In this document: positions 4,218 to 55,051 of the stretch, in pieces
How positions within the stretch are numbered: position 1 is the stretch's first letter
Layout of the letters: every line of letters begins with the position of its first letter
Source of the DNA: Flavihumibacter profundi
GTDB lineage: Bacteria; Bacteroidota; Bacteroidia; Chitinophagales; Chitinophagaceae
Length of the DNA: 64,000 nucleotides
Assembly: GCF_020076305.1 (NCBI RefSeq)
Contig: NZ_JAIQXE010000003.1
Span: forward strand, 744,001-808,000
Reading direction: 5' to 3'
Notes under the pieces: generated by a model
The model's database searches: none
Told to the model about the DNA's origin: nothing
The model's input: the letters and a program-made list of their open reading frames with translations, nothing else
Translations under genes and position numbers: made by a program

Positions 4218-4250
4218 ATTCACCCGCCGGGTAATACCCGGCGGGTGAAT
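4218..4250. repeat. Palindromic element, copy A (33 bp, intergenic)
   Basis: A perfect inverted repeat: a 15 bp arm ATTCACCCGCCGGGT, the loop AAT, then its exact reverse complement. The same architecture recurs at 44644 and 54554. Against the genic copy at 54554, this one differs only at the middle base of each arm, a C:G pair instead of G:C, so pairing is kept. It lies between two minus-strand genes, 30 bp before the DUF3817 start and 20 bp after the upstream lipoprotein stop. Confidence 0.9.
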
Positions 4251-44643: not shown

Positions 44644-44668
44644 ACCCGGCGGGTAATACCCGCCGGGT
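44644..44668. repeat. Palindromic element, copy B (25 bp core, intergenic)
   Basis: The arm ACCCGGCGGGT, an AAT loop and its exact reverse complement. The core is identical to the genic copy at 54554, but the outer four bases on each side have diverged. It lies between the lysE-like stop (44686) and the ATG at 44630, so it is in the leader of the downstream minus-strand gene. Confidence 0.9.
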
Positions 44669-53151: not shown

Positions 53152-54218
53152 TGCATCATATAAAACCGGGCCATATAACCGGGAGCAATTTTACCCCATT
53201 CCTTTTCCAGGCCTAAAACCCTGGCAGGGTACAGCGAAGCCATGCGTAGGGCTTCTCCTTCATCAATGCCGACTTGCTCAACGCAATATTTTACAGCTTT
53301 GGCCATTGTAAGCGCAGATCCGGAAAGTGTGCCATCGGGCATCACATAACGGTTTCCGGCGAGCCTGTGCTGGTAATACCCTTCATTGTTTTCAGTGACC
53401 GCATCCGTTATAATAAATAACCTTTCCCCCATTAACTTTTTTGCAAGCCGGATTACTGCGGCGTCTACATGATAACCGTCTGTGACAATACTCGACATTA
53501 CAGTAGGATGATCCAATATTGCGCCAACAAGACCGGGCGCGCGATGTTGGAGCGGGGACATAGCATTAAATAAATGGGTACATACTTTGATGCCTTTGTC
53601 AAATGCTGAATTTGCTTCGGTATACGTAGCATTGCTATGTCCGGCAGATATTATTATTCCGGCTTCCTGCAAAATCTTCATTGCTTCTTCGGAAAATAAT
53701 TCGAGGGCAATGGTCATCATTCGAACAACGCCTTTCCCGTAATCCACTAGTTTTCGGATATTACTTACCGTTGGCTCCTGTATCTTATCTATAGCGTGTG
53801 CGCCTCTTTTTGCTGCATTCAGAAACGGGCCTTCCAGGTGCAATCCTGCAACGCCCTTGCCACCGGCTTTCCAATATTCCCGGACAGCATCAATTGCTGC
53901 AAAAGAAACATCATTTGTATTTGTTGCAACAGTAGGTAATATGAGGCTGGCGCCACCTTCCCGGGAATATGCTACAGTGGCTTCTAACGCGGCCACAGTT
54001 GGATGTTCCCCAAAAAACTGTCCATTTCCGCCATACAACTGAATATCAATAAAGGCCGGTACCAGTTTTTTCCCCTGGAGGTCTATCTGCTCATCTGTAC
54101 TTCCATCATTTGCAACAGATGTAATCCGATCATTTTCGATACTGATAACTGCCTGGTCCATCCAGCTCTCACCGTTAAAAATCCGGCCATTGAAATACTT
54201 TATACTATGCTTACTCAT
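53148..54218 (-). CDS. nagA: N-acetylglucosamine-6-phosphate deacetylase, short C-terminus
   Basis: 356 residues. Hallmarks: FIDIQLYGGNGQ, GLHLEGPFLNAAKRGAH, IISAGHSNATYTEA, THLFNAMSPLQHRAPGLVGAILD, IVTDGYHVD, ITDAV and GTLSGSALTM. The metal Glu and both metal His are intact. The end GKIAPGYMARFYMMH stops about 20 residues before the usual final strand (GxxADxVxxD...VxxxxxxG). The stop overlaps the convergent S41 stop. It is translationally coupled to the amidase upstream (ATGA). Catalysis should be unaffected. Confidence 0.92.
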   Translation of the reverse strand: MSKHSIKYFNGRIFNGESWMDQAVISIENDRITSVANDGSTDEQIDLQGKKLVPAFIDIQLYGGNGQFFGEHPTVAALEATVAYSREGGASLILPTVATNTNDVSFAAIDAVREYWKAGGKGVAGLHLEGPFLNAAKRGAHAIDKIQEPTVSNIRKLVDYGKGVVRMMTIALELFSEEAMKILQEAGIIISAGHSNATYTEANSAFDKGIKVCTHLFNAMSPLQHRAPGLVGAILDHPTVMSSIVTDGYHVDAAVIRLAKKLMGERLFIITDAVTENNEGYYQHRLAGNRYVMPDGTLSGSALTMAKAVKYCVEQVGIDEGEALRMASLYPARVLGLEKEWGKIAPGYMARFYMMH

Positions 54219-55051
54219 GTATTCTCATCATTTAATAAGGTGAAAGGATCCGCATCTTTCAAAAACGGCAACTTGCTGCGAATTTCCTGCAAGGCCGATT
54301 TCTCCAGTGTAATGGTATGCACGTCTTCATCATGCGATTTATCATACAATGCAACGCCCATGGGTTCAATTACCATTGTATCACCACTATGGTAATTATC
54401 GAGTCCGTCGTTTCCCACCCGGTTCACCCCTATTACATAACACTGGTTTTCAATAGCCCTTGCAGCCAGCAGGGTCTTCCAGGCATGATTGCGCCGCTCC
54501 GGCCAATTCGCCGAATAAATCAACAGGTCATACTCCGGGGTGATTTCACCCTCATTCACCCGGCGGGTAATACCCGCCGGGTGAATTTGCTGCCGTGCCC
54601 AGACCGGGAAGCGAAGATCATAGCAAACCTGCAGCATGATTTTCCAGCCTTTGACTGAAGCAACCAGCCTTTTTTTGCCTGCCGAATAATACTTATCCTC
54701 GCCGGCAAATGCAAACAAATGCCGCTTATCGTATACCCCATACTGTCCTGTGGGCAGCATCCAGATTAACCGGTTAAAATATTTTCCGCCTTCTTCAATA
54801 ATCAGGCTTCCGGTTAGGATAATTCTTTTTTTCGCCGCCAGGTTTTTCATCCAGGAAACTGTTGGACCATCCATAGATTCGGCAAATTTCGCCGGTTGCA
54901 TACTGAACCCGGTGCTGAACATTTCGGGAAGCACTACGATTTCGGTATTCTCAGTGATTCCCAAAATCTTTTTTTCAAACATCGCCAGGTTGGCAGCTTT
55001 ATCTTCCCAATGCAGGGAACTCTGTATTGTAGTAAGGGTCAGTGAAGACAT
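54215..55051 (-). CDS. Carbon-nitrogen hydrolase (omega-amidase YafV-like) with palindrome insertion
   Basis: 278 residues. The catalytic triad is E43 (LPEMFSTGFSM), K109 (YDKRHLFAFAGED) and C143 (QVCYDLRFPVW). This points to the omega-amidase/YafV branch of the nitrilase superfamily, which deaminates ketoglutaramate-type amides. Residues I156-N166 (IHPAGITRRVN) are exactly the translation of the 33 bp palindromic repeat at 54554-54586. Homologues I recall, such as E. coli YafV, pass from RFPVW to YDL with a shorter loop. The frame is kept and all later family blocks (LLIYSANWPERRNHAWK, IENQCYVIGVNRVG) are intact, so the protein may still work. Confidence 0.92.
   Translation of the reverse strand: MSSLTLTTIQSSLHWEDKAANLAMFEKKILGITENTEIVVLPEMFSTGFSMQPAKFAESMDGPTVSWMKNLAAKKRIILTGSLIIEEGGKYFNRLIWMLPTGQYGVYDKRHLFAFAGEDKYYSAGKKRLVASVKGWKIMLQVCYDLRFPVWARQQIHPAGITRRVNEGEITPEYDLLIYSANWPERRNHAWKTLLAARAIENQCYVIGVNRVGNDGLDNYHSGDTMVIEPMGVALYDKSHDEDVHTITLEKSALQEIRSKLPFLKDADPFTLLNDENT
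54554..54586. repeat. Palindromic element, copy C, inside an amidase gene
   Basis: A perfect inverted repeat: arm ATTCACCCGGCGGGT, AAT loop, then its reverse complement, 33 bp or eleven codons. On the minus strand it is read as IHPAGITRRVN in the amidase. Its length is a multiple of three and its reading frame has no stop, so the host gene stays open. The core is identical to copy B at 44644 and one base-pair swap from copy A at 4218. Confidence 0.95.

Follow-up and report, generated by a model that had tools for sequence, protein, structure and literature searches.

Concerted change of a dispersed family of palindromic arrays into species dialects in the genus Flavihumibacter

The genus examined here carries a dispersed family of short palindromes whose copies have changed in concert into species dialects, at places that are partly shared between species. 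One member lies in frame inside an amidase gene in a window of 64,000 nucleotides (the window being the whole stretch of DNA that was analysed), and two others lie between genes. The features concerned, in window coordinates, are as follows.

4218..4250, no strand assigned: two-unit array with the unit centres exchanged; intergenic (L076)
44644..44668, no strand assigned: two-unit array, 25-bp core only; intergenic, between two predicted minus-strand genes (L077)
54215..55051, minus strand: nitrilase-superfamily amidase gene, 278 aa, catalytic C143, with the array in frame
54554..54586, no strand assigned: 33-bp palindromic array of two 11-mer units, amidase residues 156-166
54558..54568, no strand assigned: unit 1, ACCCGGCGGGT on the plus strand
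54572..54582, no strand assigned: unit 2, ACCCGCCGGGT on the plus strand

A preliminary description of the window had reported the amidase palindrome, and its account of the element itself was accurate: positions 54554-54586 form a perfect inverted repeat with 15-bp arms and a 3-nt centre, in frame in the minus-strand gene, and the encoded residues (IHPAGITRRVN) start 13 residues past C143, with the family motifs of the amidase intact around them. Folding of this segment as DNA gave -19.7 kcal/mol (z -8.1), and none of 100 dinucleotide shuffles of the window contained a match, even when up to 3 mismatches were allowed. The protein matches PF00795 and scores 240.4 bits against NF007757, below the cut-off of 249. 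A search of the window against Rfam 15 gave no match at gathering score. Inside the amidase gene the array is followed by another small inverted repeat (54538-54551), which reads GGGTGAAATCACCC on the minus strand. Two further copies had been proposed. The one at 4218-4250 is, as described, a complete 33-bp palindrome whose two units have swapped their C/G centres; at 44644 the 25-bp core is shared, but the outer arms are not.

Repeat unit, genomic distribution and species dialects

We refer to the genome of the window as G000 and to the other genomes of the genus as G001-G014. The G000 unit is an 11-bp near-palindrome, ACCCGSCGGGT, which with a 3-nt spacer recurs at 14-bp steps in arrays of two, three or four units (25-53 bp). 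Across the genus the general unit is ACC-n-G-n-C-n-GGT, repeated two to seven times at 14-bp steps. The suggestion that the palindrome is multi-copy and dispersed was borne out by a genome-wide search of G000, in which the pair pattern (up to 3 mismatches) gave 49 matches versus none for the reversed control; the exact 11-mer occurs at 120 places, versus one for its control. We counted 47 G000 arrays when units were allowed up to 2 mismatches and 45 under a stricter rule, both figures covering fetched loci only and leaving out C2:636988, C2:646803, C2:728351, C3:439941 and all unlisted sites. Twelve of the 47 lie within predicted genes, as called by a home-made codon score, and 35 lie outside them, at 18 tandem, 11 divergent and 5 convergent sites and one that overlaps a gene edge. 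One stretch of 11.5 kb (L056, C1:1831500-1843000) contains five arrays. Nine lone 11-mer sites, eight of them genic, are perhaps chance matches.

A strong hairpin found mostly outside predicted genes might be expected of an intrinsic transcription terminator. However, the 10 nt 3' of the hairpin, taken on both strands of 45 arrays, have an A fraction of 0.42 and a T fraction of 0.22, the reverse of a terminator. Moreover, divergent sites outnumber convergent ones and a quarter of the arrays (12/47) lie in predicted genes. Flank composition and gene orientation together make the terminator explanation very improbable indeed. We also rejected promoter-bound operators. Of 100 flanks on the promoter side, 31 contain a promoter-like TANNTTTG box (control fraction 0.272), and 11 boxes lie within 20 bp where 6.1 were expected; the tendency is slight, and therefore no regulon is evident.

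In size, the nearest known system is that of REP sequences with their RAYT. As described in the available sections of PMC3733652, these too are short dispersed palindromes, mostly intergenic and sometimes genic. They differ from the present arrays in the GTAG/CGTC tag that they carry at one end: read by eye, our arrays have no such tag, and CGTC occurs in them only at the centre of the W-dialect unit. The many divergent-gene sites and the switching of dialects also set the arrays apart, as does the result for PF01797, which had no match in G000 in a search that was positive in 5 of 14 control genomes, and a RAYT-driven origin was rejected. A phage origin was rejected as well, since two dialect patterns matched no stretch in viral contigs, and so was a plasmid origin, for which the four records returned (46-52% coverage at E 1-5) were taken as chance. 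The open-licence literature yielded nothing for Chitinophag- combined with palindrome or repeat terms, and six of the 11-mers used as text strings returned, by listing, other subjects only.

Dialects were defined by unit positions 4, 6 and 8 together with the spacer, and were counted in fetched loci with each array taken once. In most carriers a single dialect accounts for nearly all copies. Thus, 84 of 96 G000 units read ACCCGSCGGGT, with an AAT/ATT spacer in 40 of 51 cases, and 117 of 118 G012 units read ACCCGWCGGGT, with a GCC/GGC spacer in 57 of 67. The latter spelling also accounts for 34 of 38 units in G008. G004 has ACCCGTCCGGT in 67 of 73 units (3/73 being of the G005 kind) and G005 has ACCCGACCGGT in 29 of 35 (3/35 of the G004 kind). 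The exception is G014, which is mixed, with 13 S-type and 11 ACCCGACCGGT units. At four G014 loci (L281, L213, L184 and L026) units of another dialect lie between outer S-dialect units, as though new units had been added within old arrays; such nesting was seen in four of the eight G014 arrays first read and in none of five arrays in 400 kb of one G014 contig.

A pattern covering all dialects found pairs in 12 of the 15 genomes of the genus: 147 in G014, 132 in G012, 102 in G003, 92 in G011, 82 in G009, 69 in G004, 50 in G008, 45 in G000, 18 in G005, 6 in G006 (55% complete) and 3 each in G002 and G013. None were found in G001, G007 or G010, nor in five genomes of other genera; for the G004 and G005 dialects, five genomes outside the genus were searched. 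At family level, the exact ACCCGNCGGGT pair (ACCCGN type) is present in 3 of 294 sampled genomes, all three of this genus, and absent from the 288 sampled outside it. Reversed control patterns gave no match in any genome of either search.

In behaviour, the closest parallel is with the dialects of DNA uptake sequences (DUS) in Neisseriaceae. According to the available sections of PMC3630211, DUS are thousands of copies of one dispersed sequence, spelt in a species-specific way, located within and between genes, occurring also as inverted pairs and containing a TGA stop in one frame. All of these features except the copy number have counterparts here, and they would suit uptake or other self-marking sequences whose dialects act as species barriers. 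The dialect feature in particular recurs, with G014 mixed. However, our copies are 11-mers set in palindromic arrays at a 14-bp step, and they number 3-147 pairs per genome in the 12 carriers, or 120 exact 11-mers in G000, versus the thousands of DUS copies. A role in uptake or self-marking therefore seems highly improbable.

Shared positions and switching of dialect

Nearly half of the G000 arrays (22 of 45, by script among fetched loci) are matched by a collinear array in some other species of the genus, with a median offset difference of 4 bp. Loci fetched around G012 arrays gave 7 collinear cases versus 1.36 expected (Poisson P 0.0005). Those of G004 gave 10 by script, or 9 without a double count, versus 0.85, and those of G008 gave 2, or 1 without the double count, versus 0.48; all of these expectations assume uniform placement. 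The double count concerns L061:2970, which was matched to single G004 and G008 arrays that pair better with L061:3101; it has its own G012 partner, and the total of 22 is therefore unchanged. The number of units was equal at all 13 sites shared by G000 and G012 (permutation P 0.0013) and at all four shared by G004 and G005. With G000 as the reference it was equal at 4 of 9 sites in G004, 2 of 3 in G008, 3 of 4 in G013 and none of 4 in G014. Hence, places are shared while unit number shifts in some lineages.

Shared places are mostly intergenic, some falling within predicted genes or at their ends, and at some of them G013, a genome with few copies, has degraded forms. Upstream of mutS2, arrays are present in G000, G012, G008 and G014; G013 and G003 each have one degraded unit there, and G007 has none. 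Upstream of dnaK, they are present in G000, G012, G014, G011 and G003, degraded in G008, and not seen in G013 or G007. At both places each species uses its own dialect. Other places are shared less widely: an array upstream of a desaturase gene is confined to G000 and G012 among eight genomes compared, and a pair of arrays upstream of rimO to the same two among seven, with one degraded unit in G008. At the end of an MBL-fold gene, three of seven genomes (G000, G012 and G008) have arrays.

The closely related G004 and G005 allowed the switch itself to be followed at single sites. Four pairs of loci (from 26 and 14 fetched, respectively) could be aligned along some 3.1-3.2 kb, with 82-92% identity and an array in each member. 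At three of the four sites all eight units differ in dialect while array length is kept, and the fourth has the G005 spelling in both species. In one of the three switched pairs, L293/L315, a 10-bp length difference lies directly outside the array. What distinguishes the two species at the switched sites is rewriting in place, not fresh insertion. In the pairs L299/L320 and L300/L328, the first unit differs by two or three substitutions, which also flip its orientation; this hints at replacement of a whole block.

These observations bear on the preliminary proposal that the palindrome is a mobile element inserted into a live gene. The copies are dispersed and in frame, and the amidase loop is longer than in most homologues (see below), so this much of the proposal stood. 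Recent insertion as a general account did not, since 22 of 45 arrays are collinear elsewhere and dialects change without any change in array length.

Arrays within genes and the amidase loop

As had been suggested, the palindromes lie in frame in several predicted genes, the 12 genic G000 arrays being either in frame or gene-ending. Apart from the amidase, the genes affected encode WbqC-like, LuxE-like, DinB-like, Snf2-helicase, peptidyl-prolyl-isomerase, NagZ-like and TonB-receptor proteins; these names come from reading the sequences, and the amidase alone was run against family libraries. In four of the 12 the array ends the gene, its last T and the following GA forming a TGA stop. The same is true of 5 of 8 genic arrays in G012 and of none of the 6 in G004, G005 and G008 combined. 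The stop-supplying arrays are L051, L067, L075 and L080 in G000 and L228, L232, L240, L242 and L251 in G012, which makes 9 of the 20 genic arrays of these two species. An array at the G000 place, with the same number of units, is also present in four G012 genes: WbqC-like (4/4), LuxE-like (3/3), DinB-like (2/2) and Snf2 (2/2). There, the ACCCGWCGGGT spelling of G012 encodes other amino acids than the G000 spelling does; in these four genes the amino acids follow the DNA dialect.

Palindromic elements in frame within genes are known from Rickettsia, and in genic position these are the nearest parallel. The available sections of PMC3767692 describe elements of 100-150 bp that lie in frame in genes, in exposed regions of the protein and at the same locus in orthologues, which are likenesses to the arrays described here. 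They differ in length, the G000 arrays measuring 25-53 bp, and in that our arrays share one dialect per species; Rickettsia elements lose repeat identity over time, as PMC6649704 states in the part available. Perfect inverted repeats in coding sequence also occur in the mitochondria of Nematomorpha, where, according to the same sections of PMC6649704, they are thought to be actively maintained and are gained and lost between species. Those palindromes are mitochondrial and up to 284 bp long, and the text available to us does not state that one dispersed sequence changes in concert. Each of the three bacterial systems compared (DUS in behaviour, the Rickettsia elements in genic position, REP in size) departs from the arrays in one or more of the features tested.

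Alignments of orthologues show variable length at the WbqC-like, LuxE-like, DinB-like, Snf2-helicase and peptidyl-prolyl-isomerase genes, the DinB-like segment with the array being shorter in G000 than in relatives. The NagZ-like and TonB-receptor genes have gained no length, and the residues under their arrays have counterparts in relatives. One alternative explanation is repeated in-frame insertion of a mobile palindromic element, of the Rickettsia or MITE kind, for which sites like the amidase loop would be hot spots. The differing unit numbers at many shared sites speak for it. Against it stand the collinear positions, the length-neutral change of dialect, the unchanged length of the NagZ-like and TonB-receptor genes and the lack of a PF01797 match (the one transposase family searched), and we consider it improbable.

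In the amidase of G000 the loop after CYDLRFPVW is 22 residues long; among 29 homologues its length is 7-30 residues. The preliminary description had suggested asking whether relatives lack the additional residues. The loop is shorter in 22 of the 29, and the other seven are all of the same genus. Among close relatives, G005 has a loop of 10 residues with no unit, G009 one of 13 with a single unit and G014 one of 28 with four units, the last being the sole array collinear with the amidase array in the fetched loci. Because these species have none, one and four units, gain or loss did occur in this loop, and such differences among close relatives are a point in favour of a mobile element. Long loops are also found without a recognisable array in G012 (22 residues) and G001 (29 residues), so that loop length by itself is no mark of an array. 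In 80 further relatives, with the loop counted two residues longer, it has at most 16 residues in 49 and at least 24 in 12, and some of the long loops have no palindrome. The array may have entered the loop by insertion in this lineage.

Two other Chitinophagaceae (L121 and L122) have an unrelated palindrome, CCCTCTC-N(2-7)-GAGAGGG, in the same amidase loop, as a mobile element with a preference for this place might. It is likewise dispersed, with 1-21 copies in each of 12 genomes out of 14 others of the Chitinophagaceae type (control 0). A further amidase loop (L125) contains TTCGACTCCGCTCAGG, which we take to be a common Bacteroidota repeat.

In a tree of the amidase (30 rows; 14 of 27 inner branches open) G000 pairs with G013, G012 with G008 and G003 with G011, and G014 groups with G002, G004, G005, G006 and G009; the count of four changes on this tree was coded without knowledge of the G004, G005 and G009 dialects. 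A structure predicted from a 42-row alignment had a mean pLDDT of 84.6, falling below 50 at residues 158-167, and 2e11, the solved structure nearest to it in sequence, has gaps in that region. The array thus corresponds, in the predicted model, to a low-confidence loop. It is most simply regarded as a tolerated resident of a variable loop, the residues of which would follow the DNA of the array.

Candidate causes of the concerted change

The uniformity of the copies within a species would be kept either by a factor that recognises the DNA or by conversion between copies. One form of the latter is a family of self-maintaining repeats, in which replication is broken or stalled at hairpins or cruciforms and repair carries sequence from one array to another by ectopic conversion and from one arm to the other by template switching, giving homogeneity without any function. 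In its favour, palindromic flanks of site-specific sequence, at least 6 bp long, occur at 10 of 45 G000 arrays, where mixing flanks between sites predicts about 0.4; the array at L056:9838 has 19 bp on each side, and five G012 arrays have flanks of at least 10 bp. The flips at L299/L320 and L300/L328, which resemble block replacement, and the enclosed units at four G014 loci are also in its favour. However, the flank effect is not general (0/31 arrays in G004 and 0/11 in G008), nesting was absent from the five arrays of the 400-kb G014 stretch, and the shared homology is short, at 25-53 bp in G000. Furthermore, the degraded arrays of G013 show that palindromy alone fails to preserve an array. 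We therefore consider self-maintenance possible but unlikely.

Taken whole, the explanation that we consider best, if still somewhat short of an even chance, is that these are dispersed palindromic sites of one genus, matched to a putative trans-acting factor. Such a factor would bind DNA sequence-specifically at the array sites; selection would hold the sites to its current specificity, and a shift in that specificity would drag the sites along, a situation resembling the DUS dialects of Neisseriaceae. In favour of this reading are the near-uniform dialects, the shared places, the equal unit numbers between G000 and G012 and between G004 and G005, the change of dialect at constant array length and the four genes whose amino acids follow the dialect. 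We prefer a factor with shifting specificity to repair-driven conversion between copies. Several findings nevertheless stand against it. Unit number is equal at just 4 of 9 sites shared by G000 and G004 and at none of 4 shared with G014; sharing is patchy, as upstream of the desaturase gene (2/8 genomes) and of rimO (2/7); G014 is mixed; and the tendency towards promoter-like boxes is slight. In addition, the orientation flips at two sites suit block replacement better than site-by-site selection, the inverted site-specific flanks point to hairpin-driven copying, and copy number is far under that of known uptake sequences. A more tentative form of the factor model is that the arrays represent an undescribed genome-wide addressing system in Bacteroidota, with 11-bp palindromes at a rigid 14-bp pitch and a putative factor whose specificity shifts between sister species and forces their concerted rewriting, genic sites included.

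G004 and G005 seem to be half-way through a switch, each keeping a few units of the other kind, and this state makes selection by a binding factor and repair-driven conversion testable against each other. It is unusual for sites that are short, dispersed and not in tandem to change in concert at shared positions. The arrays also correct the view that a palindrome lying in frame in a gene has to be a fresh selfish insertion.
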